Of a DNA stretch of 64,000 bases, positions 3,896 to 34,904 are shown in pieces. Location: assembly GCA_013348725.1 (NCBI GenBank), contig CP054689.1:1662501-1726500 (forward strand), written 5' to 3'. Origin of the DNA: Ectothiorhodospiraceae bacterium 2226 (GTDB lineage Bacteria; Pseudomonadota; Gammaproteobacteria; GCA-013348725). Made by a program: the position numbers and the translations under genes. A model generated the notes under the pieces. That model saw nothing but the letters and a program-made list of their open reading frames with translations, was not told the origin of the DNA and did no database searches. Positions within the stretch are counted from its first letter, which is position 1; the number at the start of each line of letters is the position of its first letter.

Positions 3896-3970
3896 ACAAA
3901 AATATTCCGGCGGATCGCACAGCCTGAGGGGGCCGTGGGTCCGATCTTCCTTCGCGATGGCAGGCCCCGC

Positions 3971-4486
3971 ATGCACATGCCGAACGAATCCGTTTCCGGT
4001 CCGCGCCCCGATGACGGTCTGCGCAGTACGCGCCTGAACGCCATCATCCGCGACCTGCGCCTGGTGTTGGGCGCGATCCGCGAGCACTCGCGCTGGGTCG
4101 AATCGCACTGCGGCGTGAGCGCCGCGCAATTATGGGCTTTGTGGGAGCTGGCCACAGCCCCGGGGATGCGTGTGTCGGAGCTCTCGCGCGCGCTGACCAT
4201 TCATCAATCCACGGCCAGCAATATGCTCGACAAGCTCGAGCGCAAAGCGTTGGTGGAGCGCGTACGGGGCGGACCCGATCAACGGGTGGTGCGCCTGTAC
4301 CTCACGGAAGCGGGCATGAGCCTGCTGCAGGATGCGCCGCGGCCGGCACAGGGGGCGATCAGCAGCGCCCTGCAGAGTCTGCCGGACGCGGAGTTGGAGG
4401 GCTTGCATCGGCATCTGGATCGCCTGGTGCAGGCCATGGGTGTGACGGATCGGCAGGCGGCCTTGCGGCCGTTGGGTGCCGATTGA
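3971..4486 (+). CDS. MarR-family transcriptional regulator
   Basis: A 171-residue winged-helix regulator. The recognition region reads MRVSELSRALTIHQSTASNMLDKLERKALV, followed by the wing RGGPDQRVVRLYLTEAG; the DxR pattern in the wing (here DQR) is typical of MarR. MarR dimers repress and release DNA on binding small anionic or phenolic ligands or on oxidation. I chose ATG 3971; an in-frame GTG at 3935 lies very close to a GAGGGGG sequence and would add 12 residues. The gene heads the plus-strand run of carbamoyl/amidotransferase genes and is the natural candidate regulator of that run, though no direct evidence ties them. Confidence 0.85.
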   Translation: MHMPNESVSGPRPDDGLRSTRLNAIIRDLRLVLGAIREHSRWVESHCGVSAAQLWALWELATAPGMRVSELSRALTIHQSTASNMLDKLERKALVERVRGGPDQRVVRLYLTEAGMSLLQDAPRPAQGAISSALQSLPDAELEGLHRHLDRLVQAMGVTDRQAALRPLGAD

Positions 4487-4811: not shown

Positions 4812-5258
4812 TTGCGGGGATTCTTGTGCTGGTGTTTTTGCCTGCTGCTCCTGCTGCCGCCGGCCGCAGTAGCGCAGGTGCCCGTCCTCACGGTCAGTGA
4901 GGACGTGGCGCGGGCCGGGTACTACCGGCTCGATTGGTCCGGCGCCGTCGCGGGCGCCGGCGCGCGCTTCGTGCTCCAGCGGGCGGCGGACGCCACATTC
5001 GCCGAGGCGCAGACGGTCTACCGCGGCCTCGACTCCGCCCGGGTGCAGAGTGGCGTGCCGGACGGCACCTATTACTACCGTGTGCGGGTGGAGGGCCCCG
5101 AAGGGGCGGGTCCATGGAGCGCACCGCGACGCGTCGAGGTGGCTCATCACCCACTGCCCCGCGCGCTGGGTTTCCTGGGCGTGGGGCTGCTCGTATTCCT
5201 GATGACGCTGGGACTGATCGTCAGCGGTGCCCGCGCCGCGGCAAAGGAGCCTGCATGA
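4812..5258 (+). CDS. Exported, membrane-anchored protein with a fibronectin type III-like domain
   Basis: A 148-residue protein. A signal peptide (hydrophobic CWCFCLLLLLPPAAVAQ, cleavage likely after AVA) is followed by a compact beta domain with fibronectin type III features: YYRLDWSG, an FVLQRA strand, TYYYRVRVEG and GPWSAPRRVEV. A C-terminal transmembrane helix (about residues 118-138) ends in a short basic tail. It would display one FN3-like domain in the periplasm. The start is TTG at 4812 with GAGG upstream, since no ATG or GTG in frame precedes the signal sequence. Its stop overlaps the next start (ATGA at 5255), indicating translational coupling to the hydrolase. Confidence 0.65.
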   Translation: MRGFLCWCFCLLLLLPPAAVAQVPVLTVSEDVARAGYYRLDWSGAVAGAGARFVLQRAADATFAEAQTVYRGLDSARVQSGVPDGTYYYRVRVEGPEGAGPWSAPRRVEVAHHPLPRALGFLGVGLLVFLMTLGLIVSGARAAAKEPA

Positions 5259-6490
5259 GTTTGACGGTCGACTTCGAGCGACTGAAATCCGATATCCAGA
5301 CCCTCGCCACCATCGGCCTCGGCGAGGGGCAGGGCCTCTACCGCATGGCCTTCTCAGACGGCGATATGCAGGCGCGCGCCTGGCTCGCCGAGCGCATCCG
5401 CGCCGCGGGCCTCGACCTGCACGTGGACGGCGCGGCCAACATCCATGCCCGTCTCGGCTGGGACGAAGGGCGCACGCCCAGTGTGATGATGGGCTCGCAC
5501 ATGGACACCGTGCCGGGCGGCGGCCACCTGGACGGTGCGCTCGGCGTGCTGGTCGCGCTGGAGTGCGTGCGCCGTCTGAAGGAGGCCGGCACCGCGCTCG
5601 CGCGCCCGGTCGAGGCGGTCGCCTTCACCGACGAGGAAGGCCGCTTCGGCGGCATGCTCGGCTCGCAGGCCATCGCCGGGCGCCTCACCCCGCAGACAAT
5701 TTACGCCGCGCACGATCTCGACGGCATTTCGCTGGTCGAGGCCATGCAGGCCTACGGACTCGATCCGATGGACGCCCTCAGCGCCCAGCGCCGGCCGGAC
5801 AGCCTGCATGCCTTTCTGGAACTGCACATCGAACAGGGCCCGGTGCTCGATCGCCAGAAAATCAGTGTCGGCGTGGTGGAGGCCATTACCGGGCTGTTCA
5901 AGTGGAACGTGCGCCTGATCGGCGTCGCCAATCATGCCGGCACCACGCCCATGGACATGCGCCAGGACGCCTTCCAGGGGCTGGCCGAGTTCGCCGGCGA
6001 GATCGCCCGCATTCTGGAGGAGCACGGCAGTGCGCGCAGCGTGGCCACCATCGGCCGCGCCGAGCTCTATCCCGGCGCGGCCAACACCGTGCCGGGGCGG
6101 GTGGAATTCTCTCTGGACGTGCGCGACCCGGCGCCCGAGGTGCTCGCGGGCTTGGGTCACGCCTTCCGCCGGGCGCTGTCCGCCATCGCCCGGCGGCGCG
6201 ACCTGATGTTCGAGTTCGAGGTGCTGAGCGAGATCGAACCGGTCAAATGCGATGCGGGTATCGCGGACCTGATCGAAGAACACGCCAATGCACTGGACTT
6301 GCGGGCGCTGCGCATGGTGAGCGGCGCGGCGCACGACACGCAGATCATGGCGGGCATTACCCGCGCGGCTATGATTTTCGTGCCCAGCAAAGAGGGCCGC
6401 AGCCATTCCGCGGCGGAGTGGACGGCGTGGGAAGACATCGAACGCGGCGCGAACTTGGCCCTGGCCACGCTCGCCCGCTTGGCCGCCTAG
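5255..6490 (+). CDS. Zn-dependent hydantoinase/carbamoylase-family amidase (N-carbamoyl-L-amino acid hydrolase / allantoate amidohydrolase-like)
   Basis: A 411-residue M20-type metallo-amidase. Metal-site motifs are GSHMDTVPGGGHLDGALG (H82, D93), FTDEEG (E127/E128), LELHIEQGP and GRSHSAAEW; the dimerisation-domain motif NHAGTTPMDMRQD is intact. Family members hydrolyse N-carbamoyl amino acids, beta-ureido acids or allantoate, releasing ammonia and CO2. The ATG overlaps the stop of the FN3-like gene, and 8 nt separate it from the isochorismatase gene. An ATCase-like transcarbamoylase sits four genes downstream. One enzyme that makes and one that breaks carbamoyl-nitrogen bonds in a single run suggests a ureido-compound pathway. 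The true substrate cannot be read from the sequence. Confidence 0.9.
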   Translation: MSLTVDFERLKSDIQTLATIGLGEGQGLYRMAFSDGDMQARAWLAERIRAAGLDLHVDGAANIHARLGWDEGRTPSVMMGSHMDTVPGGGHLDGALGVLVALECVRRLKEAGTALARPVEAVAFTDEEGRFGGMLGSQAIAGRLTPQTIYAAHDLDGISLVEAMQAYGLDPMDALSAQRRPDSLHAFLELHIEQGPVLDRQKISVGVVEAITGLFKWNVRLIGVANHAGTTPMDMRQDAFQGLAEFAGEIARILEEHGSARSVATIGRAELYPGAANTVPGRVEFSLDVRDPAPEVLAGLGHAFRRALSAIARRRDLMFEFEVLSEIEPVKCDAGIADLIEEHANALDLRALRMVSGAAHDTQIMAGITRAAMIFVPSKEGRSHSAAEWTAWEDIERGANLALATLARLAA

Positions 6491-6498: not shown

Positions 6499-7227
6499 AT
6501 GGAAGACAAGCTCGATCCGCAATTTCTGAACGTCGATCCGCTCGAGGAGGCATATCGGGAGAGCATTACCGACCCGAAGGCCTTTCGGCGCTCGCTCGGT
6601 GAACATCACACCGCGCTGATGGTCATCGACGTGCAGTACCTGGACGCCGCGCCCGGCCACGGCGTGTTCGCCAACCTGGAAGAGAACGATGTGCCGCGTG
6701 AGGCGCAGGAATACTACTTCTCGCGTTTGCACGACATGGTGCTGCCCAACATCCGCTTGCTGCAGGACGCGTTTCGATCGCGTGGCCTGGAGGTGATCCA
6801 CACGCGTATCCAGTCGCTCACCCAGGACGGGCGCGAGCGCAGCCCGGGTCACAAGCGCCTCGGCGTACACGCGGCGCCCGGTTCCAAGGAGGCGCAATTC
6901 CTGGAACAGGTCGCCCCGCAGGGCGACGAGATCGTCATCAACAAGACCGCGAGCGGCGTGTTCACCTCCACCAACATGGAGTACGTGCTGCGTAACCTCG
7001 AGATCACCGGGCTGTTCGTCACCGGCGTGTACACCAACGAATGCGTGTCCACCACGGTGCGCGACGCCTGCGACCTCGGCTTTTACGTCACGCTGATCGA
7101 CGATGCGTGTGCCACGGTGACGCCGGATTTGCACGAGGCCACCATCCGCACCCTGCGTGATCGTTACGCCCGCGTGCAGTCCACCGAGGACGCCCTGCAG
7201 GACATCAAGGGGCTGGTCTTCGCGTGA
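6499..7227 (+). CDS. Isochorismatase-family cysteine hydrolase
   Basis: A 242-residue hydrolase with the catalytic triad of the family: Asp in MVIDVQ, Lys in VINKTASGVF and the nucleophilic Cys in GVYTNECVSTTVRDA. The superfamily includes N-carbamoylsarcosine amidase, ureidoacrylate amidohydrolase, nicotinamidase and isochorismatase. Next to a carbamoylase, an amidase acting on a carbamoyl or amide nitrogen is the likeliest role (inference). It has an extended N terminus of about 40 residues before the core. The stop overlaps the GTG of the symporter (GTGA at 7224), so translation is probably coupled. Confidence 0.88.
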   Translation: MEDKLDPQFLNVDPLEEAYRESITDPKAFRRSLGEHHTALMVIDVQYLDAAPGHGVFANLEENDVPREAQEYYFSRLHDMVLPNIRLLQDAFRSRGLEVIHTRIQSLTQDGRERSPGHKRLGVHAAPGSKEAQFLEQVAPQGDEIVINKTASGVFTSTNMEYVLRNLEITGLFVTGVYTNECVSTTVRDACDLGFYVTLIDDACATVTPDLHEATIRTLRDRYARVQSTEDALQDIKGLVFA

Positions 7228-8705
7228 ATGTGGTCGGCGATGCCATTCTGGATCCGGGGCTCGCCGGCCTATTACTGGTAATCCTGAGCGCGCTGTGGAT
7301 TGCGCTCGGATGGTATTGGGGCCGCGGGGCGCGCACCGCGGACGACTACATGCTGGCCGGGCGCAACGTCGGCATGGCGCTCGCCACCGCCACCGCGATG
7401 GCGACCTGGGTGACCAGCAATACCACCATGGCCGCGCCGCAGCTTGCGCTGCAGCTCGGCCTGTGGGGGATGATCGGCTACTCCTTGGGCTCGATCGGGC
7501 TGTTGCTGTTCGCGCCGCTCGCGCACCGCATCCGTACCTTGATGCCGGGCGGCTACACCAGCGGCGATTTTTTCCGCCTGCGCTACGGCAAGACCGGCTG
7601 GCGGGTGTTTCTCGCCATCTCGCTGTTCTACGGTCTGGGTTGGCTGATCAGCCTGGGCATGGCCGGCGGCGTGTTGATTCATGCCCTGTCCGGCATCGAC
7701 TACCGCATCGGCATGAGTGTCATTCTCGCGGTGTGCGTTGCGTACACCCTGCTCGGCGGGCTGCGTGCGGTGATCGGCACCGATTTCATTCAGACCATCC
7801 TGATCGTGGTCGGCGTGGTGGTGCTGGCGGTGCTGGCGGTGGGGCGCGTGGGCTTCGACGAGATGCACGGCACGCTGCTCAGCGAGCGTCCCGAGCTGCT
7901 GAACATGCTCATGCCGGCCGCGCTGATGTTTCTGTTCAACAACCTGTTGTTCGGGGTGGGCGAGATCTTCCACTCCAACGTGTGGTGGAGCCGCGCGCTG
8001 GCGTTTCGCGGCGACGTCGGGCGGCGCGCCTATCTGCTGTCGGGCATCTTTTGGATGCCGATCCCGATCGTCGCCGGTTTCGTGGCACTGGCCGCGCCGG
8101 CGCTGGCGCTGAACGTGCCGGACGCCGACATGGTCGGGCCGATGGTGGCCGCCGAGCTGCTCGGCGTGGCCGGCGCGGTGATCGTCTTCGTGGTGGTGTT
8201 CGCGGCGCTGGCCTCGAGCCTGGACTCGCTGCTCGCGGCGACCAGCGACCTGGTCACGCGCGACATCTATCAGGGGCATGTGCGTCAGCACATGACGCCC
8301 GAGCAGTTGCAGAGTGCGGCGCGCTACACGGTGCTCGGCTTGGGCGTGCTGACCTGGTTGCTGTGTCTGCCGCGCATCACCGACCTCGCGGCGCTGCTGC
8401 ATTTCACCGGCGCGTTTGTGGCCAGCACCATCTGGCCGGTGGCGGCCGGTCTGTATTGGCGGCGCACGAATCGCACCGGCGCGATCCTCGCCATGGTGCT
8501 GGGCAGCGCCGCGGGCTTGAGCGCGTATTTCATCATCGGGTTCTACGTCGCCGCGCTGGTCGGCGCCGCGGTGTCGATGACGCTGGTGTTGGTGAGCACC
8601 TGGCTGTGGCCCGAAGACTTCGACTGGCGGCGCCTGAACGAGACGCCGCCGAGCGGTGGTTCGGCGCCGAGTCCGAGCCCTAACCTGGGCGGGGGCGTGG
8701 CATGA
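7224..8705 (+). CDS. Sodium:solute symporter (SSS) family transporter
   Basis: A 493-residue polytopic protein with about 13 hydrophobic helices. Family features include an N terminus running into GRNVGMALATATAMATWVT and the segment GGYTSGDFFRLRYGK. SSS proteins couple uptake of solutes such as proline, pantothenate, urea, sugars or amino acids to sodium. The start is GTG at 7224 within the stop of the hydrolase gene. Its own stop overlaps the ATG of a 40-codon membrane ORF (ATGA at 8702), an arrangement seen when a transporter has a small accessory subunit. The substrate is not evident; given the neighbours, an amide, ureido or amino-acid compound is a reasonable guess. Confidence 0.9.
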   Translation: MNVVGDAILDPGLAGLLLVILSALWIALGWYWGRGARTADDYMLAGRNVGMALATATAMATWVTSNTTMAAPQLALQLGLWGMIGYSLGSIGLLLFAPLAHRIRTLMPGGYTSGDFFRLRYGKTGWRVFLAISLFYGLGWLISLGMAGGVLIHALSGIDYRIGMSVILAVCVAYTLLGGLRAVIGTDFIQTILIVVGVVVLAVLAVGRVGFDEMHGTLLSERPELLNMLMPAALMFLFNNLLFGVGEIFHSNVWWSRALAFRGDVGRRAYLLSGIFWMPIPIVAGFVALAAPALALNVPDADMVGPMVAAELLGVAGAVIVFVVVFAALASSLDSLLAATSDLVTRDIYQGHVRQHMTPEQLQSAARYTVLGLGVLTWLLCLPRITDLAALLHFTGAFVASTIWPVAAGLYWRRTNRTGAILAMVLGSAAGLSAYFIIGFYVAALVGAAVSMTLVLVSTWLWPEDFDWRRLNETPPSGGSAPSPSPNLGGGVA

Positions 8706-8824
8706 CGGCGAGTATCGAATTTCTCACGGTGCTGGTGAGCGTCGCGATCGGCGCGGCGGCGGTGGCGCCGGTGGTGCTGATTACACTTTGGATCAGGGAC
8801 AGGAAATCGGGGAGACTATGGTGA
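8702..8824 (+). CDS. Small single-pass membrane protein (40 aa), probable accessory subunit of the SSS transporter
   Basis: ATG at 8702 overlaps the symporter stop by 4 nt, and the TGA at 8822-8824 overlaps the transcarbamoylase start at 8818. The peptide begins MTASIEFLTVLVSVAIG, continues with a hydrophobic stretch through APVVLITLW and ends in a basic tail IRDRKSGRLW: one transmembrane helix with the charged end probably cytoplasmic. The double stop/start overlap with both neighbours argues that it is translated. Several SSS carriers are known to have short hydrophobic partners; whether this belongs to any named family is unknown. Confidence 0.65.
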   Translation: MTASIEFLTVLVSVAIGAAAVAPVVLITLWIRDRKSGRLW

Positions 8825-9894
8825 GCGAGCTGAATCCGCTGCTGGAACACCCTTTGCAGCCCAAGGACGGGACGGCGGGCATCGAACGCCCCACCGCCCT
8901 GCTGAATCACATCGAAGAGGATGCCGCGCCGCTGGTGGATCTGGCCAACCGCTGCATCGTCTCGGCGCGCCAATTCGACCGCGCCACCTGCGTGCAGTTG
9001 TTTCGCCTGGCGGCACAGTACGAGTCTACCCCGGCGCTGATGGCGCGGCCGCTGGCCAACAAGATCTTGATCAGCGCGTTCTACGAGCCGAGCACGCGCA
9101 CGCGCCTGTCGTTCGAGAGCGCGTGGCATCGGCTAGGCGGCGACATCATGTCGATCACCGATCGTGGCTCGACCGGCATCGCCAAGGGCGAGTCGCTGCC
9201 CGACATCGCCGAGATGTTCAACAACTACGGCGACGTCATCGTGCTGCGCGACTCGCACGACCAGTCGGTGTACGAGATGTTACCCGCGCTGCGCATCCCA
9301 ATCATCAATGCGGGCAACGGCGTGGACGAGCATCCCACGCAGGCGCTCGCCGATCTGTACGCCATCTTCAAGTGGCGCCCGGAGCTGCTCGACGAGGACC
9401 TGCCCGAGGATCAGCGCATCCGTATCGGCGTGATCGGGGTACCGGACCGCATGCGCACCGTGCGCAGTCTGCTGCTGATGTTGAGCCTGTTCCCCGAGGC
9501 GATCGCCGAGATCGTGATCATCAGCCCCGAGGAGGGGCTGTTTCGCGAAGGCCAGCGCGAGGAGCTCGAACAGCGCGGACTGCGCGTGCGCGTCTCCAAG
9601 CGCCTGGACGAGACCCTGCCCGCGCTCGACGTGGTGTACATCAACTCCATCGCCTGGGTGGGCGATACCTACGAGCAACTCGGGGTGGACATGCGCCTGT
9701 CGGCCGACTCGCCGCTCAAGTCCGGCGCGATCGTGCTGCATCCGCTGGCGCGCGGTGCCGAGCTGGCCACCGATCTCGATGACACGCCGCACAACTGGTA
9801 CTTCGCGCAGGCGCGCGGTGCCGTGTTCGTGCGCATGGCGCTGCTCACCTGTCTGGTGCAACGCATCGGGCAGGTGATGGACGCGCAGGACTGA
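8818..9894 (+). CDS. Aspartate carbamoyltransferase-like transcarbamoylase with altered substrate site
   Basis: A 358-residue paralogue of the ATCase catalytic subunit with an extra N-terminal arm of about 40 residues. The carbamoyl-phosphate site is kept: STRTR (92-96), R144 in IVLRD, HPTQ (172-175) and R213 in RMRTVRS; the end TPHNWYFAQ matches ATCase closely. The amino-acid side differs. The ATCase segment TRVQ, carrying Arg229 and Gln231 that hold aspartate, reads NSIA here (residues 276-279), and the HPLP loop is HPLA (308-311). A substrate other than aspartate is therefore likely. Start is ATG 8818, with GTG 8821 as an alternative. It lies between the small membrane protein and the amidotransferase, not with pyrimidine genes. 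Confidence 0.88.
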   Translation: MVSELNPLLEHPLQPKDGTAGIERPTALLNHIEEDAAPLVDLANRCIVSARQFDRATCVQLFRLAAQYESTPALMARPLANKILISAFYEPSTRTRLSFESAWHRLGGDIMSITDRGSTGIAKGESLPDIAEMFNNYGDVIVLRDSHDQSVYEMLPALRIPIINAGNGVDEHPTQALADLYAIFKWRPELLDEDLPEDQRIRIGVIGVPDRMRTVRSLLLMLSLFPEAIAEIVIISPEEGLFREGQREELEQRGLRVRVSKRLDETLPALDVVYINSIAWVGDTYEQLGVDMRLSADSPLKSGAIVLHPLARGAELATDLDDTPHNWYFAQARGAVFVRMALLTCLVQRIGQVMDAQD

Positions 9895-9961: not shown

Positions 9962-11983
9962 ATGTGCGGAATTGCTGGTTACATGAACGCCGATCCGGCG
10001 AAACCCATCGACCCCGAGACCCTGGTCGCCATGGTGGCGATCCAGCATCATCGCGGCCCCGACGGCTTCGGCTGGAAGCGCATGGAGGATCGCGGCGTGG
10101 GCTTTTCGCACGCGCGCCTGACCATCGTCGACCTGAACGAGAACCGCGGCCGCCAGCCGTTCGTCTCCGACGACGGCAAGCTGATGATGGCGCACAACGG
10201 CGAGTTCTACGACTACCAGCGCATCCGCGCCGATCTCACCTCGCGCGGTGCGCGCTTTCGCGCCAAGAGCGATTCCGAGCTGGTGCTCCACCTGTACCCG
10301 CGCTACGGCCTGGAGGGCATGCTGCCGCACCTGCGCGGCGAGTTCGCCTTCGCGCTGTACGACCGCGAGCGCGACCGCCTGATGCTGGTGCGCGACCGCT
10401 TCGGCGTCAAGCCGCTGTACTGGACGCAGACCGGCGACACCTTCGTGTTCGGCTCCGAGCTGAAGGTGCTGTTTGCGCACCCCGAGGTGCCCCGGCGCTT
10501 CAATCCGCAGGGGCTGTACCACCAGCTCATGCAGACCGTGGTGCCCGGCACCACGGCATTCGACGGCATCCAGCAGGTGCAGCCCGGCTGCGTGCTGATC
10601 GTCGAGCGCCGTCACGGCCGCTTCCACCTACGCCAGGAAAAATACTGGGACATGGATTTCCCGGTGATGGGGGAGCGCGACGACAACCGCCCCGAGGAGG
10701 AGTGCGTGGAGGAGGTGCGCGCGGGCCTGCTGGAGGCGGTGAACCTGCGCCTGGAGGCCGACGTGCCGGTGGGCTGTTACCTCTCGGGCGGCATCGACTC
10801 CTGTTCGATTATCGGCTTGGCGGCGGCCTGCCGCCAGGACCCGGTGAAGGCCTTCACCATCGGCTTCGACGACAAGGCCTACGACGAGACCGCCATCGCG
10901 CGCGAAATGGCCGAGTCGGTGGAGGCCGAGCAAGACGTGATGATGCTCAGCGCCGACCACCTGTACGACAACCTGGTCGAAACGCTGTGGCACGCCGAGC
11001 GCACCATCTACAACACCCTGGGCGTGGCCAAGTTGCTCATGAGCCGCCACGTGCGCGAGACCGGCTACAAGGTGGTGGTGACCGGCGAGGGGTCCGATGA
11101 GCTCTTCGCGGGCTATCCGGCGTTTCGGCGCGACATGTTCCTGTACGGGCTCGATACCTTGAGCGACGCCGAGCGCGCCGACTGGCAGGCCTTGCTGGAC
11201 GAGGGCAACCAGTTGTTCCGCGGCGCCATGCTGGCCGAGGAGGCGTTGGCCGATCCGGCGCTGGACCAGCTGTGCGGCTTCACCCCGAGCTGCCTGCAGC
11301 CGTGGCTGCGCGCCGGCGAGCGCGTACCGGCGCTGATGGCGCCCGAGTTGCGCCGCGAGGTGGAGGGCTATTCCCCGGGCGCGGGCATCGCCAGCGTGCT
11401 CGACGGCGACATGCTCCACGACCGCCACCCGCTCGACAAGGCGCAGTACGTGTGGATCAAGACTATGCTCGAGGGACAGATCCTCACCTGGGGCGGCGAC
11501 CGCGTGGACATGGCCAATTCGATGGAGGCGCGCCCGGCGTTCCTCGACCATCACCTGGCCGAGGCGGCCACCCAGCTGCCGCCGGGGATGCGCATCAAGG
11601 GCCGCACCGAGAAGTACGTGCTGCGCGAGGCCATGCGCGGCCTGCTGCCGAAGGTGCTGTACGAACGCCAAAAGTTCGCCTTTATGGCGCCGCCCGCGCA
11701 TACCGATCCCAAGAAGTACGCGGCCATGAAGGCGCTGGCGTCCGAGTTCCTGTCCGATCAGGCGATCGCCGATGCGGGGCTGCTCGATCCCAAGGGCGTA
11801 CAGGAGCTGTTCGCCGTGCACGAGGATCCCGAGGCGAGTGCCGGCACTCAGGTGCAGCTCGACGCCATCATCAATCACATGCTGGGGGTGCAGATCCTGC
11901 ACCGCCACTTCGTGGCCACCGACGTGCCGCGCCAGGCGCGCGAGCGGGCGCGGGAGTTGGGTTGGGAGGCTCGCTCCGCCTGA
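9962..11983 (+). CDS. Asparagine synthase-like glutamine amidotransferase
   Basis: A 673-residue class II glutamine amidotransferase plus ATP-dependent synthetase. The N terminus MCGIAGY exposes the catalytic Cys2, and RGPDG, the NGEFYDY loop and SDSELV follow. The synthetase half has LSGGIDS (pyrophosphate loop) and VTGEGSDELFAGY. Such enzymes activate a carboxylate with ATP and amidate it with glutamine-derived ammonia. It is about 120 residues longer than E. coli AsnB. Homologues of this size (AsnB, AsnO) include enzymes that amidate small peptides or osmolytes, so the acceptor need not be aspartate. GAGGAC precedes the ATG. It follows the transcarbamoylase after 67 nt. Confidence 0.9.
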   Translation: MCGIAGYMNADPAKPIDPETLVAMVAIQHHRGPDGFGWKRMEDRGVGFSHARLTIVDLNENRGRQPFVSDDGKLMMAHNGEFYDYQRIRADLTSRGARFRAKSDSELVLHLYPRYGLEGMLPHLRGEFAFALYDRERDRLMLVRDRFGVKPLYWTQTGDTFVFGSELKVLFAHPEVPRRFNPQGLYHQLMQTVVPGTTAFDGIQQVQPGCVLIVERRHGRFHLRQEKYWDMDFPVMGERDDNRPEEECVEEVRAGLLEAVNLRLEADVPVGCYLSGGIDSCSIIGLAAACRQDPVKAFTIGFDDKAYDETAIAREMAESVEAEQDVMMLSADHLYDNLVETLWHAERTIYNTLGVAKLLMSRHVRETGYKVVVTGEGSDELFAGYPAFRRDMFLYGLDTLSDAERADWQALLDEGNQLFRGAMLAEEALADPALDQLCGFTPSCLQPWLRAGERVPALMAPELRREVEGYSPGAGIASVLDGDMLHDRHPLDKAQYVWIKTMLEGQILTWGGDRVDMANSMEARPAFLDHHLAEAATQLPPGMRIKGRTEKYVLREAMRGLLPKVLYERQKFAFMAPPAHTDPKKYAAMKALASEFLSDQAIADAGLLDPKGVQELFAVHEDPEASAGTQVQLDAIINHMLGVQILHRHFVATDVPRQARERARELGWEARSA

Positions 11984-12171: not shown

Positions 12172-13536
12172 ATGAACACCATTGCCAAGATCAAGCACAC
12201 GGGCGCGGGCGCGCTCGGCTCCCACACCCGCTTCGAGGTCTACACCGAACGGCACCTCGACCAAATCGAGCCGCTCAAGGTGCTGTCGGCCGAGCAGCGC
12301 TTCGCGATGCGGGTGGTGGCCAACGTGCTGCCGTTTCGGGTCAATCGCTATGTCATCGACGAACTCATCGACTGGGACCGCGTGCCCGCGGATCCGATCT
12401 TCCAACTGGTGTTTCCGCAGCCCGAGATGCTCGACCCGCAGGCCTTCGATCGCATGGCCGACGCGCTGCGCCGCGAGGCCCCGCGCGAGGAGCTGCGCGC
12501 CATCGCCCGCGAGCTGCGCGCCGACCTGAACCCGCACCCGGCCGGTCAGCAGCAACTCAACGTGCCGAGCGTGGACGGCGAGGCGCTGGAGGGGCTGCAG
12601 CATAAGTACCGCGAGACGGTGCTGTTCTTCCCCAGCCAGGGCCAGACCTGTCACTCCTATTGCACCTTCTGCTTCCGCTGGGCGCAGTTCGTGGGCGACA
12701 AGGAGCTGCGCTTCTCGGCGCGCGAGGCCTCGCACCTGCACGACTACTTGGCCGCCCACCCCGAGGTGTCCGATCTGCTGCTCACCGGCGGCGATCCGAT
12801 GGTGATGAAGAGCCAGCACCTCGTGGATTACCTCGACCCGCTGCTCGAGCCGCGCTTCGAGCACGTGCAGACCATCCGCATCGGCACCAAGTCGCTCACC
12901 TTCTGGCCGCAGCGCTACGTCAGCGACAAGGACGCCGACCTGCTGCTGTTCCAGCTCGAGCGCCTGGTGAAGGGCGGTAAGCACGTGGCGCTGATGGCGC
13001 ACTTCAACCACTGGCGCGAGATGGAAACCCCGATCGTGCGCGAGGCGATTCGCCGCGTGCGCGACACCGGCGCCGTGATCCGCACCCAGGCGCCGCTGCT
13101 CGCGCACATCAACGACGACGCGGCGGTGTGGGCCCGCATGTGGCGCACGCAGGTGCGCCTCGGGCTGGTGCCGTACTACCTGTTCGTCGAGCGCGACACG
13201 GGAGCGCGGCGCTACTTCGAGGTACCGCTCGCGCGCGCCTGGGAGATCTACCGCGACGCCATGCAGCAGGTCTCGGGGCTGGGGCGTACCGCGCGCGGGC
13301 CGTCCATGAGCGCCGGCCCCGGCAAGGTGGAGATCCAGGGTGTGGCCGAGATCGCCGGCGAGAAGGTGTTCGTGTTGCGCTTTATCCAGGCCCGCAATCC
13401 GGACTGGGTGCAGCGGCCGTTCTTCGCGCGCTTCGACCCCGAGGCCACGTGGCTCGAGCAGCTCAAGCCCGCGTTCGGCGAGCCGGAGTTCTTCTTTGCG
13501 CCCGAGTACCGGCGCATGAAGGGCGCCGCCGCCTAA
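12172..13536 (+). CDS. KamA-family radical SAM aminomutase with non-lysine substrate site
   Basis: A 454-residue homologue of lysine 2,3-aminomutase. The iron-sulfur motif is CHSYCTFC (C160, C164, C167; CX3CX2C), followed by LLLTGGDP. The PLP-binding lysine is K385 in GPGK. In clostridial lysine 2,3-aminomutase the substrate amine is held by Asp293 and Asp330, 44 and 7 residues before the PLP Lys337. At the same spacings this protein has R341 and S378, so lysine is unlikely; an Arg there would suit a carboxylate side chain, as in glutamate 2,3-aminomutases. Beta-amino acids of that kind are known compatible solutes. Start is ATG 12172 behind GAGGCTCAGG. MscS follows after 11 nt. Confidence 0.87.
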   Translation: MNTIAKIKHTGAGALGSHTRFEVYTERHLDQIEPLKVLSAEQRFAMRVVANVLPFRVNRYVIDELIDWDRVPADPIFQLVFPQPEMLDPQAFDRMADALRREAPREELRAIARELRADLNPHPAGQQQLNVPSVDGEALEGLQHKYRETVLFFPSQGQTCHSYCTFCFRWAQFVGDKELRFSAREASHLHDYLAAHPEVSDLLLTGGDPMVMKSQHLVDYLDPLLEPRFEHVQTIRIGTKSLTFWPQRYVSDKDADLLLFQLERLVKGGKHVALMAHFNHWREMETPIVREAIRRVRDTGAVIRTQAPLLAHINDDAAVWARMWRTQVRLGLVPYYLFVERDTGARRYFEVPLARAWEIYRDAMQQVSGLGRTARGPSMSAGPGKVEIQGVAEIAGEKVFVLRFIQARNPDWVQRPFFARFDPEATWLEQLKPAFGEPEFFFAPEYRRMKGAAA

Positions 13537-13547: not shown

Positions 13548-14486
13548 ATGGACGTCGTGGAGCAGATTCTCGGCGAGATCACCTGGGCGACCGTGATCGG
13601 CTCGTCACTGCGCATTTTGTTCATCCTGCTGCTGGCATGGATCGGCGTGATGGTGATCAAGCACGCGCTGCGGCGACTGGAGCGGCACCTGGTGCGCCAG
13701 GGCGTGGTCGAGGGGCAGCCGGCCAGCGAATCGGCCAAGCGGGCCGAGACCCTGGTGCGCTTGTTGCGCCAGGCGGTGGTGATCATGGTGTGGGTCACCG
13801 CTTCGCTGGTGGTGCTGCGCGAGGTGGGGGTGGAGATCGCGCCCATCCTCGCCAGCGCCGGCGTGGCGGGCCTGGCGATCGGCTTCGGCGCCCAGAATCT
13901 GGTGCGCGACGTGATCGCGGGATTCTTCATCATCCTCGAGAACCAGGTGCGCGTGGGTGACGTGGCGGTGATCAACGGCACCGGCGGCCTGGTGGAGGAG
14001 GTGAACTTCCGCACCCTGGTGCTGCGCGACCTGTCGGGCACGGTGCATATCTTTCCGAACGGCACCATCGGCTCCATGGCCAATATGACCACCGGCTGGT
14101 CCGGCTACGTGATGGACATCGGCGTGGCCTATAAGGAGGACACGGATCACGTGGTGGAGGTGATGCGCCAGGTGGCCGAGGAGATGCGCAAGGATGAGGA
14201 GTGGGGGCCGAGTATCCTGCAGGAGATGGAGGTGTTCGGCGTGGACGACTTCGCCGACTCCGCCGTGGTCATCAAGGCGCGCCTGAAGACCCTGCCGATC
14301 CAGCAGTGGGCGGTGGGGCGCGAATACCGGCGCCGGCTCAAGAAGGCCTTCGACGCGGCGGGGATCGAGATCCCGTTCCCGCACCGATCCATTTACTTCG
14401 GCGAGGCGAGCAAACCCATTATCGCCGAGCTCATCGAGCGCAGCGGCCACGTCGTGGAGAGCGGTACGGAGCGCTCGAAGGTCTAG
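13548..14486 (+). CDS. MscS-family small-conductance mechanosensitive channel
   Basis: A 312-residue inner-membrane channel. Two N-terminal hydrophobic helices (residues about 12-35 and 75-98) precede the pore-lining helix with AGVAGLAIGFGAQNLVRD, the hallmark Ala/Gly packing stretch. The beta domain (GDVAVINGTGGLVEEV, FPNG) and alpha/beta C-terminal vestibule follow. MscS channels release small solutes on hypo-osmotic shock. It starts 11 nt after the aminomutase gene and closes the plus-strand run, which links the run to osmotic adaptation by context. The next gene converges on it with a 10-nt gap. Confidence 0.92.
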   Translation: MDVVEQILGEITWATVIGSSLRILFILLLAWIGVMVIKHALRRLERHLVRQGVVEGQPASESAKRAETLVRLLRQAVVIMVWVTASLVVLREVGVEIAPILASAGVAGLAIGFGAQNLVRDVIAGFFIILENQVRVGDVAVINGTGGLVEEVNFRTLVLRDLSGTVHIFPNGTIGSMANMTTGWSGYVMDIGVAYKEDTDHVVEVMRQVAEEMRKDEEWGPSILQEMEVFGVDDFADSAVVIKARLKTLPIQQWAVGREYRRRLKKAFDAAGIEIPFPHRSIYFGEASKPIIAELIERSGHVVESGTERSKV

Positions 14487-24017: not shown

Positions 24018-26945
24018 GTGAACGCGGGAGCGCGTGGGCGGCGCGTCCTGTTCGCGGCCCTTGCGATGATGGGCGTGCTGCTCACTTTGCCCCTCGCAGC
24101 GAGCGATGTCCGCTATTCATACGACGAGCTGGGGCGCCTGATCGAAGCGTTCGATACCGCCACAGGTCTGACCCGCTATACCTATGATCCTGCGGGTAAC
24201 CTGATCGGCGTAAACAGGTATCAGGGGGCGGCTCCTCCTAACGTAGACGATCAAGAAGTGGCGCATCTCCGTTGTGGCGCTTCGGTTGAGATGTCGATCA
24301 GTGGGTCAGGCTTTGACGGCGTGCGGTTGGAGGCCTCCGATCCCGACATCCTCATCGACGAGGTCCGCCTCGTCGAGGGGGTGTTGATGTTCACCCTGAC
24401 CCCTCTTTGCTCCGCGCCGCACGGGGACCACCGGATTACCATCATTGGGATTGCGGGAAGCACCGAAGTGCCGCTCAGTCTTGGGCCTAAGCTGCCCACG
24501 CTGTCGGTCCATCCCACGCCGCTCGCGGTTCCGCCCGACGGCAGTACCCGGCAGTTTTACATTCGCTTGTCGTCGCCCGACACCATCCAACATGCGATAG
24601 CGCTCGCGACGGATGCGCCGGATGTGGCCGCAGCGGGTGAGGGGGAGCTGGTGATTCCTCCGGGCGAGACCGAAGTGGTGGGAGCCCTGCGCGGACTCTC
24701 AGCCGGCTTCACCACGCTGCGCGTTTCCGCCGATGCGCTGAAAGATATCGCGGTTCCGGTCTTCGTCACCGCCGAGTTCGCAGGCATCAATACGAGCTAT
24801 ACGCCCGTCATTGGTGTCGTTATCCCGATCGCAGAACAGGCGCCCGACGAGGCCGATGTCGCGATACCTGCAAGCGCTATCGGTGTCGTGCTAGGGGCGG
24901 CTGTGACGGGCGTGGACCCGTCCACCGTGGCGCTGGGCAGCGAGCAGGTGCCGGTGCATGTGCGGGGGGTCGGCCTCTACGAAGTGGCGCATGTGACGAT
25001 CGTGCCCCACGACGGGCTTGTATGGAGCGCACCCGCGCCGCTCCCGGACGGTGCGGGCATCAGCTTCCTGCTGGATGTCGACGAAGCGGCACCGACCACT
25101 TTGCGGCGCATCGTGCTGCACACGGATGAGGGCGCTGCCATCCCAGCTCAGCCTGGTGCGGACCGGCTACGCGTGACGCTGCGCGCGCCGGTCCTGCACT
25201 CCGTCAGTCCCATCAATCTGGTTCCTGGGACGTCAGGCATGGAGGTGGTCTTGCGCGGCGCGAATTTCCATGATGCCCTGAGCGTCGACGTTGTGCCGCC
25301 AGAGGGAATCGCCGTCGGGGAGTCGCCCGTCATCAGCGCGGATGGCACCATGGCGACGACCACGCTCTCGGTTTCCCCGACCGCGAGCTACGGCGAGCGG
25401 GTGGTCCGCATCGTGACGCCCGGCGGGTCCACCTCGGTCACGCCGACGCCGTTCAACACCGTTCGCATCGTTCCCGATATCGACGCCGATATCCCCAATC
25501 TCCTGGCCGCTCAGGTCGGCGTGCGGCGTGAGGTGGAGATAGCCGATGCGGAGCGTGCAAGCGCCGCGCAAACGGTACCCGTCGGCGTCACGCGTGGCGC
25601 CGTTTTGGCCGCGACGGAGCCCAGCGCGCTGATGGTCGGAGAGACCCGCCTGCTGACGGTGAGCGGCCGCGGCCTGCAGAACGTCGATCAACTTGCGTTC
25701 ATGCCGGACGAGGGCATCGCTTTGGACAGCGCGGTACTGGCGTCCGGCGACGGAACTGCGGTGTCTGTTCAGGTCACCGTCGCGCCGGATGCGGTAACGA
25801 CGCGCCGCCAGATCGTTCTCCACAGCGCCGGGCAGCGCGTCCCGCCCGTTCGCGCGGACGCCGATCGCATCTGGATCGCGAGCGGCGCGCCTCAGGTTCA
25901 GTCGGTGTCGCCGCTCGTGTTCGTCGCCGGCGAGGTCGTGCCGATTACGCTGCGGGGCGTGCATCTGGAGGATGCCTTCGAGGTGGAGTTCGTGCCGCAG
26001 AATGGAATCAGCATCGGCGAGCTCGTCCCCGGCGGAAACGGCACCTGGTTGAGCACGGTCGTGTCGGTCGCGCAGGACGCCTCGCTTGGCGAAAGGACAA
26101 TCCGGGTGCGTACGCCGGCCGGAGCGACCAGTCCCCTACCCGGCCCATCCAATCGCGTCTACATCACCGAATCGCCGGGCACGGACGTCAGCGCACTCGC
26201 GGGCCCCTCTGTGGGCGTTCTTCGCGAGCAGGTTCCGCAGGACTCACCCCCGGAGTCTCGCAGCACGCACGCCGTCACGGTCGGCGTTCTGAAAGAGGAG
26301 GCCGTCGATCCCAGTGAGATTCCGCGATTGGTGAGCGCTGCGCGCGCCGGTGTTGCGAAAGGTCCAGTCGCACTCGGCCTCTCCCCCGTGGCGGGACTTC
26401 CCGGGCAGCAGGTTGACTTGCACATCACCGGGCACGGATTGACGGAGCCGATGGACGTTCGGTTTGAACCGGGCACGGGCATCGTCGTGGAAGAGAGTCA
26501 AGCGCACGACGCAGGCGGCATCCTCATCCGGGTCACGCTCGAAGCAGACGCCCCGCCCGTCGTGCACTCGCTCACGATCGAGGGCGAGCAAGGCGCCGTA
26601 CACCACGCCAAGCCCGCACAGATGCTGTTCGAAGTTGGGTACGGTTCGCCGGCAATCCATTCCATCGAGCCCATCCTGGGTGGGCGCGGCGATCTCGTTG
26701 ATCTGCTGATCCGTGGCGAGAGCCTGAATGGCGCATGGCGCGTCTATGCGGAGCCTGGCGAAGGTGTGGTGTTCGACAGTCATACGACGGTAAACGCCGC
26801 GGGCACAGAGGTGCGTGTCCCGGTGCAGATCGAAGCCACAGCCCCGCTTGGCCCACGCGTCATACGCGTCGTGGTGCCCGGCGCGGTATCCGAGGGACCG
26901 GCGGAGCCGGCCAACACCTTCACGATTTATGAGGCCGTGCCATGA
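24018..26945 (+). CDS. Large exported protein with one RHS/YD repeat and multiple IPT/TIG-like domains
   Basis: A 975-residue protein with a signal peptide (basic GRR then LFAALAMMGVLLTLPLAA). Right after it comes a single YD-type repeat pair (YSYDELGRLIEAFD, RYTYDPAGNLIGV) and then repeated Ig-like beta domains. Recurrent segments such as LVPGTSGMEVVLRGANF, FVAGEVVPITLRGVHL and GLPGQQVDLHITGHGL are typical of IPT/TIG domains found in bacterial surface proteins. The start is GTG at 24018. Its stop overlaps an ATG (26942), and the glycine-rich and Rhs genes follow in the same direction, so it is probably an extracellular partner of the Rhs system. Function unknown. Confidence 0.75.
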   Translation: MNAGARGRRVLFAALAMMGVLLTLPLAASDVRYSYDELGRLIEAFDTATGLTRYTYDPAGNLIGVNRYQGAAPPNVDDQEVAHLRCGASVEMSISGSGFDGVRLEASDPDILIDEVRLVEGVLMFTLTPLCSAPHGDHRITIIGIAGSTEVPLSLGPKLPTLSVHPTPLAVPPDGSTRQFYIRLSSPDTIQHAIALATDAPDVAAAGEGELVIPPGETEVVGALRGLSAGFTTLRVSADALKDIAVPVFVTAEFAGINTSYTPVIGVVIPIAEQAPDEADVAIPASAIGVVLGAAVTGVDPSTVALGSEQVPVHVRGVGLYEVAHVTIVPHDGLVWSAPAPLPDGAGISFLLDVDEAAPTTLRRIVLHTDEGAAIPAQPGADRLRVTLRAPVLHSVSPINLVPGTSGMEVVLRGANFHDALSVDVVPPEGIAVGESPVISADGTMATTTLSVSPTASYGERVVRIVTPGGSTSVTPTPFNTVRIVPDIDADIPNLLAAQVGVRREVEIADAERASAAQTVPVGVTRGAVLAATEPSALMVGETRLLTVSGRGLQNVDQLAFMPDEGIALDSAVLASGDGTAVSVQVTVAPDAVTTRRQIVLHSAGQRVPPVRADADRIWIASGAPQVQSVSPLVFVAGEVVPITLRGVHLEDAFEVEFVPQNGISIGELVPGGNGTWLSTVVSVAQDASLGERTIRVRTPAGATSPLPGPSNRVYITESPGTDVSALAGPSVGVLREQVPQDSPPESRSTHAVTVGVLKEEAVDPSEIPRLVSAARAGVAKGPVALGLSPVAGLPGQQVDLHITGHGLTEPMDVRFEPGTGIVVEESQAHDAGGILIRVTLEADAPPVVHSLTIEGEQGAVHHAKPAQMLFEVGYGSPAIHSIEPILGGRGDLVDLLIRGESLNGAWRVYAEPGEGVVFDSHTTVNAAGTEVRVPVQIEATAPLGPRVIRVVVPGAVSEGPAEPANTFTIYEAVP

Positions 26946-26992
26946 ACAGCCTCGCGACGCAACAAACGCCCAGAGTGAACGGGAGAGGAACC

Positions 26993-28495
26993 ATGAAAAC
27001 TGCCACAACCTACAATCGCTACAAGTGGTCGGCAGCGGTCGCGCTGCTCATGATGCCGCTGACGGCGTCGGCCTTCGAGAGCGGGAGTACCGGCGCAGAC
27101 GGCGCCTTCAACCCCACGGTGAACACCCGACTCGCGTTGCCGCCGGGCGGGGTGTTCAATTTCACCAACGTCAATATCCCCGCCGACGTGACCGTTACCT
27201 TCGAGAAGAACACCACCAACACACCGGTAACGTGGTTGGTGGCGGGCGATGTGAACATCGCCGGGACGGTCAGCGTCTCCGGTCGTTGGTCGACTGCCGT
27301 GGGCGCTGCCGGTGACGGCAATATCGGCGACGATGGGCTGCCGGGGGAAGCGGGACCGGGTGGATTCGCGGGAGGCCGCGGGGGCGAGATTGATCCCTCG
27401 TTCGCTGGGCGGGGAGGGTCCGGGCTTGGCCCCGGCGGTGGCCAAGGAGGCCGGTACTACTCCGCCTACGGGGTTCCGAGTGGTGGCGGTGGCGGCGGGT
27501 ATGGAGTGGCTGGCGCGCGGGCCGCACAGCTCAGCAGTCACGCGACCCAAGCGGCCGGGGGTGGCGCATACGGCTCGGAACTTCTTCTGCCGCTCATCGG
27601 TGGATCCGGCGGCGGGGGCGGGATGGGGGGAAGCTTGTTCCACGGCTCCGGCGGCGGCGGCGGAGGCGGCGGGTTGCTGATCGCCGCGTCCGGCACGGTC
27701 ACCGTATCGGGGCGCATCCTCGCCGTCGGCGGCAATTCCGGGGCCGCTGCCGGCGCCGGGGTCGGCGGAACGGGCGGCGCAGGCAGCGGCGGGGCGATTC
27801 GCATCGTTGCCACGGCGATTACCGGGAATGGCGTTATAGATGCCCGCGGCGGGCAGAGCGGCGCGCAAACCAGCCAATCTGGTGTAAGCACCTCATACAT
27901 GCGGGGTGGCAACGGCGGCGTGGGGCGTGTCCGTCTCGAAGCGGAGGTGTTCAATCGCACGGCGGCTACGACACCCCCTTTCAGCTTCTCTCAGCCCACG
28001 GCCGTGTTCGTGGCCGGGCTGCCATCGTTGCGCATCCACAGCGTGGCCGGCGTCGAAGTCCCGGAATTTCCGACCGGCTACGCCGACGTGACACTGCCGT
28101 CCGACGCGCCCAATCCGGTAACCGTCGCTTTCGCTACCACCGGAGTTCCAGTGGGTAACACGGTGCGACTCACGGTCACGCCCGCCTATGGCCCTAGTAC
28201 CACTGTCGTGAGCCCGGCACTGACCGGTAGCACCGACAGTGCGACGGCGAGCGTGTCGGTCAACATCCCCGATGGCCCCAGCACCTTGACCGCCCAGACG
28301 ACTTACACGGTGATCGCGTCGGTGGGCGACGCGCTTGCACCCTTCGCGAGTGGCGAACGTGTGGAGCAGGTGCGTCTGGCCACCTCCTCGGACGGCGGCT
28401 CGAGCATCACGCTCATCACGGTTTCGGGAAAGGAGTATGCGCTTCCCGGCCGATTGCCGGCGATGCCCGCGGCACCTGAGTCCGACCACAGCTAG
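26993..28495 (+). CDS. Exported glycine-rich repeat protein
   Basis: A 500-residue protein starting at ATG 26993 behind GGGAGAGGA. A signal peptide (YKWSAAVALLMMPLTASAF) is followed by a beta-rich head, where NVNIPADVTVTFEKN, WLVAGDVNIAGTVSVSG and GTVTVSGRILAVGGN suggest parallel beta-helix turns. About 250 residues are very Gly-rich, including runs of six or more glycines, and end in RIVATAITGNGVIDARGG. A non-Gly C-terminal domain of about 150 residues follows. The composition suggests a surface or secreted adhesive fibre. An alternative ATG at 26942 overlaps the previous stop but would bury the signal peptide. It lies 12 nt before the Rhs gene. Confidence 0.75.
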   Translation: MKTATTYNRYKWSAAVALLMMPLTASAFESGSTGADGAFNPTVNTRLALPPGGVFNFTNVNIPADVTVTFEKNTTNTPVTWLVAGDVNIAGTVSVSGRWSTAVGAAGDGNIGDDGLPGEAGPGGFAGGRGGEIDPSFAGRGGSGLGPGGGQGGRYYSAYGVPSGGGGGGYGVAGARAAQLSSHATQAAGGGAYGSELLLPLIGGSGGGGGMGGSLFHGSGGGGGGGGLLIAASGTVTVSGRILAVGGNSGAAAGAGVGGTGGAGSGGAIRIVATAITGNGVIDARGGQSGAQTSQSGVSTSYMRGGNGGVGRVRLEAEVFNRTAATTPPFSFSQPTAVFVAGLPSLRIHSVAGVEVPEFPTGYADVTLPSDAPNPVTVAFATTGVPVGNTVRLTVTPAYGPSTTVVSPALTGSTDSATASVSVNIPDGPSTLTAQTTYTVIASVGDALAPFASGERVEQVRLATSSDGGSSITLITVSGKEYALPGRLPAMPAAPESDHS

Positions 28496-28507
28496 CGAGG
28501 GCTTACG

Positions 28508-31500
28508 ATGTCGGTGGGGCGTACTTGCATGCAGAGGGCCTGGCGCAGGCTAGCAGTGCTGATGCTGGCCGCAGTCGCGGTGCTCGCCGGTTCTTCTGGC
28601 TGGTCGTTGGCGCCTGAAGCGCAGCTCGTCGCCACGTTCGCGGAGCCGCTGAAAGGGCTCGCCCTCGATCAGCCTGGAGAACGGGCCCTGGTGCTGGCGA
28701 ACGAGCGTGTTCACCTCGTTGATCTAAGCGCTGACGCCGGCACGTCCGTGGATTGGGCGGGCAGTCCCGCACTGGCGGCCGTCGCCGATAGGGGCCGCGG
28801 TAGTTTCGTCATTGCCGATCAAGGCAACCGCATCCACTTCGTCAGCGCCCAGGATCTCCAACCCATTCACCCGCCGCTCAAGCTTGCGCCCTTAGCGCCG
28901 ATGTTGAGGCTCGATCCGGAGCGCGGCATGGTCGTCGCGCCGCGGCGCAACGGGCGCACCATCTTCTTCGTCGATGCCGTCTCCGGCATGGCCGTGTCGG
29001 AGTTGCGCCTGGACGGAACGCTCCAGCACTTCGATGTCCACCCAGAAAGCGGCAAAGTCCTACTGCTCGAGCGGCCCCGAGGAGGAGCGCGGCTTGCCGA
29101 CCGAATTGTCGTCGTGGACATCGCGACGCAAACGGTCGACGTCAGGACCGCCCTGGCCGAAAGATATGCGGCCATAGCGGTCAGCGACACGCAGCAGGCA
29201 GCTGTCATGGCCGTCAGTGACGCGCGCCGTGTGGACTTGTTGGACCTGGCATCCCGCCAGGTGATGCGCTCGTATGATACAGCCCACCAGGTAAGCGATC
29301 TGATCCTTTTTGCCGGCGGCAACTATGCGCTGTTGTTGGATGAGCGCGGTGGGTACGTGTCGGTCCTCGACCTGGAGACCGGTGACGTTCACGCCTACGG
29401 CAAACTTCCCGAGTGGGTGGGCGTTGGCGTCTCGGCGCGCTACAACCAGGCCCTTTTCGCCGTGAGTCACAAGCATCACCGGGTCGTGTCGCTCGCACTG
29501 CCGAGCCGCGCGCCGTCCCTGTCGTGGATCGATCCGGACGAGGTTCTGGAGGGCGCCCAGCCCTTCGAGTTGCACCTCCATGGCAGCGGCTTCGTCGACG
29601 GGGCGGAAGTAATGCTCGACGAAGAGCGCATGGCGTCTCGCTGGATGGACGCGACGTACTTGACCGTAGAGGTGCCCGCCGACGCGGTCGCTACCGCCGG
29701 CGTGCGGAATGTCAGCGTCGAGAATCCTGGCCCGGTTCCCGCACCATCGAATGCGCTCGTCCTGACGGTGCGTGCGCCCAACCCGGTTCCTGTAATCGAT
29801 GCCCTCCATCCTTCGGAGATTGAAACCGGCGAGATACCGGTCAGTATCGCCCTTTCAGGCAGTGGGTTCATCGGGGAGTCGAACGTGTATGCGGGCGCAG
29901 AAGCCCTCGAAACGGTCTATGTCAGCGAACACATGCTGGAAGCTGTTATCCCGTCCCGTCTGAGGCAGGATACCGGGACTCTGCCCTTGATGGTGGTCAA
30001 TCCGCCGCCCGGTGGCGGCGCTTCGAACGTTGCCGACCTCACTGTCTCCGGCGGCGCGCCGACCGTCGCGGACTTCTCTCCCCAAAGCGGATCGGCGGGG
30101 ACGTTGGTCACCATCCGCGGTAGCAACTTCGACGCGATTCAGCCGGGTGCCAACACCGTGCGCTTCGCCGGCACCTCTGCCGTGGTGGCCTCCGCCAGCG
30201 GCGAGCAGCTGCGCGTCGTGGTCCCGCTTGCGGCGGTCAGCGGACCGATTACCGTTTCCACCTCCCGAGGAAGCGCCACCTCTGACGACGAGTTCCTCCT
30301 GCAGGCACGAGAGTCTTTCGACGTGGTCCCGTCCGCGGATTCGCTCACCGTGCCCGCCGGCGGCGACGGAAGCCTCCAGCTCCTCCTGGAGAGTTTGGGC
30401 GCGCACGAGTACAGCCATCTGGTGGATCTTTCTTTCGAAGGTCTGCCTGCAGGTTTGACGCCACATCTGAGTCACGGGCAGCTGTCCCTCCATCAGCCGA
30501 CCGTCATCACCCTGCAAGCTTCCGGCGATGTGGCGCCGGGAACATATCAAGTGACCGTGACCGCGTCGGGCCTCATCGACGGGCGGCTCGTGCACCGGCA
30601 CTTCGATGTCGAGGTGGCGCTGCTTCCGCCCGGTACGACCACCCTGACAGGCCGCGTGCTGCAGGCCGACGACGACACGCCATTCGAAGGCGCCCTCATC
30701 CGCCTTGGCGAGGAGGTCGCGGTGACCGACGCGAGCGGGCGTTACCTCTTCCTGGAGCCCCAGCTTACCGGCGACCAGGTGATCTTGATCGACGGCCATA
30801 CGCGCAACACCGACGCCGTGCACTACGCATCGAGCATCGTCATGCCGGTCATGATCGAGCCCGGCAAGGCCAACCGCGCCATCACCAGCTATCTATCCGC
30901 GGTGGACGCCACCTCCTATACGGAGATCGCCCCCGGCCAGGCGGCCAGCGTCACCCATCCCGCGCTCGAGAACTATGAGCTACGCATCCCGGAGGGGGCG
31001 GTGCTTTGGGGATGGGACGGCACGCCCATCGATAAGATCAATGTCCGGGTGAGTCCACCCGACAGACTTCCGATCCGCCCTGTACCGGAGGGTGTCACCA
31101 CACGCAGTGTTTATCTCTATTACTTCTTCCGCGCGGGCGGCGCGGAGCCGACAGTCCCGATCCCCGTTACGATGGCGAACGACGTCGGCCTGCTGCCGGG
31201 CGAGAAGGCGGACCTTTGGTACTACGACGAGACGCCGGAACCGGATCCCGATTCGAACCAATGGCGCATCATGGGTCAGGGCACGGTCTCGGAAGACGGC
31301 AAGCGCATTGTCTCCGACCCTGGCGTAGGCATTCCCAGGTTCTGCTGCGGCGCGTCCTTCCCCAGCCCGCCGTCGCCGCCCGACGATGCCCCGGGCGGCG
31401 ACGGATGTGGGCCTTCCGGCGGCAATCCCGTAGACCTTGCCAGCGGCATTGGGTCGCTCCTACGGGACAAGGGTCTTCGTACGCATGGCCCGTTCTCCGC

Positions 31501-34438: not shown

Positions 34439-34457
34439 CAATTTACTTGAATAGACC

Positions 34458-34904
34458 TTGGAACACGCTGCCGTTGTGGACAAAGTGTTTAGGCAACTTG
34501 TGCTTGCTTCTGTATTTCTGTACACGTTTGTATGGTTCTCGCCATATTTCAGTTATTTATGGATGGATGAGAATGTAGTAGAAATGCTTGTTATTTACGG
34601 AGGGTATGGGGCGGTGTTTCCCCATGAGCAGCATTCAACATTCTTTCTCATTTTTGATGCGGTGACATACGTCGGCTTTGTTCTATCCTCAATCGGAATG
34701 CTTTTCTTTCAAGCGATTGCCCGTGCGATATTCACTCTTCTGATTGTAATTTCACAGGTAATGGTGCTTGTTTCTGGGACGGTAGTGACTATTGAAGGTA
34801 TTGCCTTTCTGGAGTCGGTTCTTTCGATGATGGATGGTGCAATTCTAGCACTGGCATATTTAAGCCCGCTTAGTAACAGGTTCAGCCCGCGTAGCGTGGG
34901 CTGA
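34458..34904 (+). CDS. AT-rich membrane protein, probable immunity protein for the Rhs tip
   Basis: A 148-residue hydrophobic protein with about four transmembrane helices (LVLASVFLYTFVWFS, YVGFVLSSIGMLFF, FTLLIVISQVMVLVSGTVV, MMDGAILALAYLSPL). It begins 20 nt after the Rhs stop, at TTG 34458 or GTG 34476; no strong ribosome site is visible. Base composition is far more AT-rich than the flanking genome, as is the toxin tip just before it. Position directly after a variable Rhs tip is where cognate immunity genes lie. A membrane-embedded immunity protein would suggest a toxin acting at the membrane or periplasm (inference). Confidence 0.65.
   Translation: MEHAAVVDKVFRQLVLASVFLYTFVWFSPYFSYLWMDENVVEMLVIYGGYGAVFPHEQHSTFFLIFDAVTYVGFVLSSIGMLFFQAIARAIFTLLIVISQVMVLVSGTVVTIEGIAFLESVLSMMDGAILALAYLSPLSNRFSPRSVG

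Follow-up and report, generated by a model that had tools for sequence, protein, structure and literature searches.

The gene at positions 8818–9894 (+) of the window (the whole stretch of 64,000 nucleotides analysed here, from Ectothiorhodospiraceae bacterium 2226) probably encodes a transcarbamoylase whose acceptor has changed: in place of L-aspartate it would use an L-amino acid whose side chain is neutral, L-glutamine being the most likely, for the synthesis of N-carbamoyl-glutamine amide (CGA). This reading builds on the residue pattern of a distinct protein family, its obligate pairing with an AsnB-like amidotransferase, a conserved operon and the presence of that operon in a CGA-producing strain, from which we infer the acceptor, the product, the order of the steps and the roles of the transporter and the hydrolases.

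The transcarbamoylase family and its acceptor site

The predicted protein of 358 amino acids (P0001) is read from an ATG start to a stop codon at position 9894 and carries both transcarbamoylase domains (PF02729, E = 2e-36; PF00185, E = 2e-11). Its nearest matches in sequence and fold are aspartate transcarbamoylases (ATCases), and on the ATCase equivalog model TIGR00670 it scores 195.9 bits, under the curated cut-off of 236.95. The AF2 model (pLDDT 88.8) has the two-domain transcarbamoylase fold, and the best PDB matches in a fold search are all ATCases (TM about 0.71–0.78 by query, 25–32% identity). In a maximum-likelihood tree the P0001 family forms a single long-stemmed clade (100/100) within the ATCase half, as a neighbour of E. 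coli PyrB with moderate support (87/87), and apart from the ornithine transcarbamylases (OTCases) and from the PyrB of its own genome. The latter is encoded at a separate locus (G000:C1:2204731–2205624), adjoins a dihydroorotase-like gene and keeps the R-x-Q motif. Phylogenetically, the P0001 clade is a family separate from PyrB. It shares with PyrB the ATCase fold, the SxRT and HPxQ motifs and the residues R105, R167 and K84, but lacks RxQxER and P268, and differs further by about 40 additional residues at the N terminus and by its AsnB-like partner.

For the active site, 81 family sequences from genomes of Ectothiorhodospira, Thioalkalivibrio, Thiohalobacter, Idiomarina, Kangiella and Leptospiraceae were aligned to PyrB of E. 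coli MG1655 and its orthologues. The STRT motif of P0001 falls at S92–T95, R105 of E. coli PyrB corresponds to R144, H134 and Q137 to H172 and Q175, K84 to K123, R167 to R213, and R296 to R339. The carbamoyl-phosphate motifs SxRT and HPxQ are kept in all 81 rows, as the sequence-only reading of this DNA had claimed of that site; relative to E. coli PyrB, S80 is Gly across the whole family and the other carbamoyl-phosphate residues are present. The same reading had placed S277, A279 and A311 opposite R229, Q231 and P268, and the alignment gives exactly these pairs. The position of R229 is occupied by A, S and T in 62, 15 and 4 rows, respectively, that of Q231 by A, S and V in 67, 12 and 2 rows and in no row by Q, and that of P268 by A in 81 of 81. 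A compensating Arg or Gln had been named as the finding that would speak against a changed pocket, and there is no Arg, Lys or Gln at any of the three positions in the 81 rows. The RxQxER motif of the 240s loop, present in all known ATCases (PMC4581275), is lost throughout (81/81), and the family has I-N-[AST]-I-[ASV]-W instead; K232 and E233 of E. coli fall opposite a gap here, so that the C terminus does not align gap-free as had been stated. At the HxLP position, where some variation is allowed (PMC4581275), all 81 rows have HPLA, in which the Pro is replaced and the rest is kept. Since they are fixed in 81 of 81 rows, the replacements are a feature of the family rather than the result of chance or sequencing error.

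It is known that R229 and Q231 anchor the beta-carboxyl group of aspartate, while R167 and K84 help to position its alpha-carboxyl group (PMC4581275). R167 and K84 are kept in 81 of 81 rows. By this pattern the aspartate site is lost where it binds the side chain and not as a whole, so the earlier claim of a lost aspartate site holds for the beta-carboxylate anchors and fails for the alpha-carboxylate ones. Because R167 and K84 are kept and R229 and Q231 are lost, the expected acceptor would be an L-alpha-amino acid whose carboxylate is free and whose side chain is not acidic. The proposal that the acceptor differs from aspartate is thus supported by the loss of the beta-carboxylate anchors beside an intact carbamoyl-phosphate site. 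The residue pattern excludes the anchor for an acidic side chain, and by itself would fit glutamine, asparagine or another neutral amino acid alike.

Among known relatives, the ornithine, putrescine and YgeW transcarbamylases share the common carbamoyl-phosphate site with P0001, but the latter belongs to the ATCase branch and its family has, in the alignment, neither the DxxxSMG motif of the OTCases nor the PTCase loop. Closer in kind is the ureidoglycine transcarbamylase (UGTCase), likewise an enzyme of the ATCase branch with a changed acceptor that was annotated as ATCase (PMC4581275). Unlike P0001, it carries an H(T/S)LP motif, which was not found in the aligned family, and belongs to a purine-degradation context. 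A glutamine transcarbamoylase would, on the best reading, be a new acceptor specificity within a known superfamily. In addition, a transcarbamoylase-like fragment with 40% identity lies at a contig end in another genome (G009, loci L093/L135, 8016–8786); VENPSQAL replaces the HPTQ motif there and RxQ is missing, and the fragment may have degenerated or represent a further acceptor variant.

The constant AsnB-like partner and the operon

The gene downstream of the transcarbamoylase gene (9962–11983, +) encodes an AsnB-like glutamine-dependent amidotransferase of 673 amino acids, with the Cys2 nucleophile and the SGGIDS PP-loop; among the family ORFs, SGGIDS is present in 81/81 and MCGIAG in 72/81. 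Apart from the generic AsnB equivalog TIGR01536, no function-specific NCBIfam model is matched above cut-off, and on TIGR03104 the protein reaches 311 bits against a cut-off of 570. The class was sampled with 369 genomes; 22 of them (about 6%), from 15 families, carry the transcarbamoylase gene, and the genomes with the AsnB-like gene are these same 22. The two are adjacent in all 19 genomes that have both on one contig, and in the remaining three, which are fragmented assemblies, they lie on different contigs. The corresponding Fisher p of about 7e-36 ignores relatedness and is a descriptive figure. Moreover, the AsnB-like gene is found in 59 of the 60 transcarbamoylase loci that have enough flanking sequence, and the only locus without it, in Thiorhodospira sibirica (L020), belongs to a genome with an AsnB-like gene elsewhere (74% identity). 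The AsnB-like amidotransferase is the constant partner of the transcarbamoylase. Its motifs and co-occurrence are consistent with a role in amidation of the alpha-carboxylate of N-carbamoyl-glutamine.

The conserved unit consists of a carbamoylase-type M20 protein, an isochorismatase-type amidase, a Na+ symporter with a helper of 40 amino acids, the transcarbamoylase and the AsnB-type amidotransferase, all on the + strand in the window. The M20 protein (5255–6490; 45/60 loci), of the hydantoinase/carbamoylase family, scores 385 bits on TIGR01879 (cut-off 204), and its nearest solved relative is an N-carbamoyl-L-amino acid hydrolase (3n5f, E = 3e-77); on the N-carbamyl-L-glutamate amidohydrolase model it reaches 382 bits, under the cut-off of 520. 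By these matches it belongs to the L-carbamoylase group, and it may hydrolyse N-carbamoyl-glutamine. It is followed by an isochorismatase-fold amidohydrolase related to biuret and N-carbamoylsarcosine amidases (6499–7227; 39/60 loci), which may break down the solute as an amide or ureido hydrolase, and by a sodium:solute symporter of the SSF family (7224–8705; 51/60 loci), a candidate for solute uptake. In Idiomarina-type loci the symporter, transcarbamoylase and AsnB genes are kept without the M20-isochorismatase pair. The ORF for the 40-residue microprotein (8702–8824), which has a single transmembrane segment and ends in ...LW, overlaps the stop codon of the symporter gene as well as the start of the transcarbamoylase gene. 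It had no match in Pfam or NCBIfam; it is present in 62 of the 66 loci with a symporter and in none of the 10 without one, and it is probably a helper subunit of the symporter.

Upstream lies a gene for a MarR-family regulator (3935–4486, +), for which no specific regulator family matched above cut-off and which is also upstream in Ectothiorhodospira and Thioalkalivibrio loci. On the other side of the unit are genes for a KamA-family radical SAM protein (12172–13536, +), a neighbour in the window's genome only and outside the conserved unit, and for an MscS-type mechanosensitive channel (13548–14486, +), an occasional neighbour. A promoter scan around the operon gave no matches, and terminator-like sites numbered 4 against 1.7 expected. 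Further along the window, positions 24018–35950 (+) hold several long ORFs, one of 1976 amino acids, of which at least two have YD/RHS-like starts (975 and 331 amino acids), and their third-position GC is below that of the operon region.

A proposed route to carbamoyl-glutamine amide

In the proposed route, a transcarbamoylase of trimeric type would transfer the carbamoyl group of carbamoyl phosphate onto the alpha-amine of L-glutamine, and the AsnB-like enzyme would then convert the N-carbamoyl-L-glutamine with glutamine and ATP to CGA. Carbamoylation is placed before amidation because R167 and K84 still hold the alpha-carboxylate. The symporter and its helper would take up the solute, and in breakdown the 1-amide might be the substrate of the isochorismatase-type hydrolase while the M20 carbamoylase would restore glutamine, although this assignment of steps is a guess. 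A similar logic is known from the synthesis of N-acetylglutaminylglutamine amide (NAGGN), in which the amine of a glutamine derivative carries a mask and its alpha-carboxylate is turned into an amide by an enzyme of AsnB type; the proposed CGA route would likewise combine amine masking with AsnB-type alpha-amidation, but with a carbamoyl instead of an acetyl group as the mask. The window's organism probably makes NAGGN as well, since the protein encoded at G000:C1:619327–621087, outside the window, scores 967.6 bits on TIGR03104, over the cut-off, as a NAGGN amidotransferase. A second uncharged osmolyte derived from glutamine would therefore fit the physiology of this organism. A search of the genome for ectoine synthase gave no match, and the control likewise gave no match anywhere, which leaves this negative uninformative.

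The CGA hypothesis was drawn from gene content before named genomes were scanned, and in the scan Ectothiorhodospira mobilis DSM 4180 then proved to carry the operon, with a transcarbamoylase (74% identical) that is among the best matches. The locus in this strain (L014) contains MarR, M20, isochorismatase, transcarbamoylase and AsnB genes. DSM 4180T is listed as E. marismortui (PMC7824335), which is the only reported source of CGA and contains it as a minor solute beside glycine betaine (PMC3857566). Other Ectothiorhodospira species also carry the operon, and because of this kinship the match in DSM 4180 is a weakened test; the rate at which the gene turns up by background across the class is about 6%. 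Against the CGA reading, the compound is reported from one species, while many bacteria have the operon. Thioalkalivibrio and Idiomarina are, to our knowledge, not known as CGA producers. All of the named carrier genera seen are ones that we take to be marine, halophilic or haloalkaliphilic. On balance it is somewhat more likely than not that many marine, halophilic and haloalkaliphilic bacteria, some Leptospiraceae among them, synthesize CGA, import it and recycle it. In the literature searched, which lacks most subscription papers, there is no glutamine transcarbamoylase and no genes are named for CGA, so an earlier assignment in subscription papers is possible; no relevant paper was found there that connects ATCase to Thioalkalivibrio or osmolytes to the gene set.

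If the proposal is true, a family that is read as aspartate carbamoyltransferase bears the wrong name throughout marine, halophilic and haloalkaliphilic bacteria, and a pathway would be at hand for a rare salt-protection molecule that has been known for 30 years from one bacterium without its genes. Culturable strains would then allow a direct test, with NMR or LC-MS, of how widely CGA is spread. Furthermore, the family would be a natural case of acceptor switching via the loss of two residues in a textbook family of allosteric enzymes.

Alternative readings

The two-enzyme logic could also hold with asparagine or another non-acidic L-amino acid as the acceptor, the product being a different N-carbamoyl amino acid amide osmolyte. 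The pocket excludes a beta-carboxylate anchor only, and the generic model is the only one on which the AsnB-like enzyme is above cut-off, both of which would agree with this reading; but E. marismortui, which carries the pair, makes the glutamine compound, and the uniform loop suggests one acceptor family-wide, so we hold it to be unlikely. It is quite improbable that the operon is catabolic, with a symporter importing a ureido compound, hydrolases degrading it and the transcarbamoylase running in reverse to give carbamoyl phosphate as UGTCase does in purine breakdown. The M20 protein does lie above the cut-off on a subfamily named allantoate amidohydrolase, whereas the genome has no allantoinase over the cut-off (its best match, a neighbour of PyrB, is probably a dihydroorotase), HPLA stands in place of H(T/S)LP, the M20-isochorismatase pair is dispensed with in Idiomarina-type loci, and the constant partner is an ATP-consuming synthetase of AsnB type. 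Purine or ureide catabolism is disfavoured by the lack of an allantoinase over the cut-off and by the constancy of AsnB.

That P0001 is an ordinary or redundant ATCase with compensating residues in the aspartate site would agree with its nearest structures and family models, which are ATCases, yet the RxQxER motif is lost and uncompensated, and the genome has a PyrB of its own next to a dihydroorotase-like gene; on these grounds we reject this reading, which we consider very improbable. Still less credence is given to the suggestion of the sequence-only reading that the acceptor is a beta-amino acid produced by the KamA-like aminomutase encoded downstream. The KamA-like gene follows the AsnB gene on the same strand in the window and is over-represented among transcarbamoylase carriers (13/22, against 27/347 of the other genomes; 40 of 369 in all), an enrichment that possibly came about through shared ancestry. 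The flanking sequence fetched around the transcarbamoylase contains no KamA-like gene in any of the 60 other loci; the gene was not found in 9 of the 22 carrier genomes and is unlinked elsewhere: outside the window's genome the two genes are 0.8–0.9 Mb apart where they share a contig, and otherwise lie on different contigs. CGA, moreover, is an alpha compound, and the aminomutase product was rejected as the acceptor on the distribution of KamA. As for the KamA-like protein itself, it scores under all function-specific cut-offs, and its counterparts in 39 other genomes of the 369 sampled are 53–79% identical to it.
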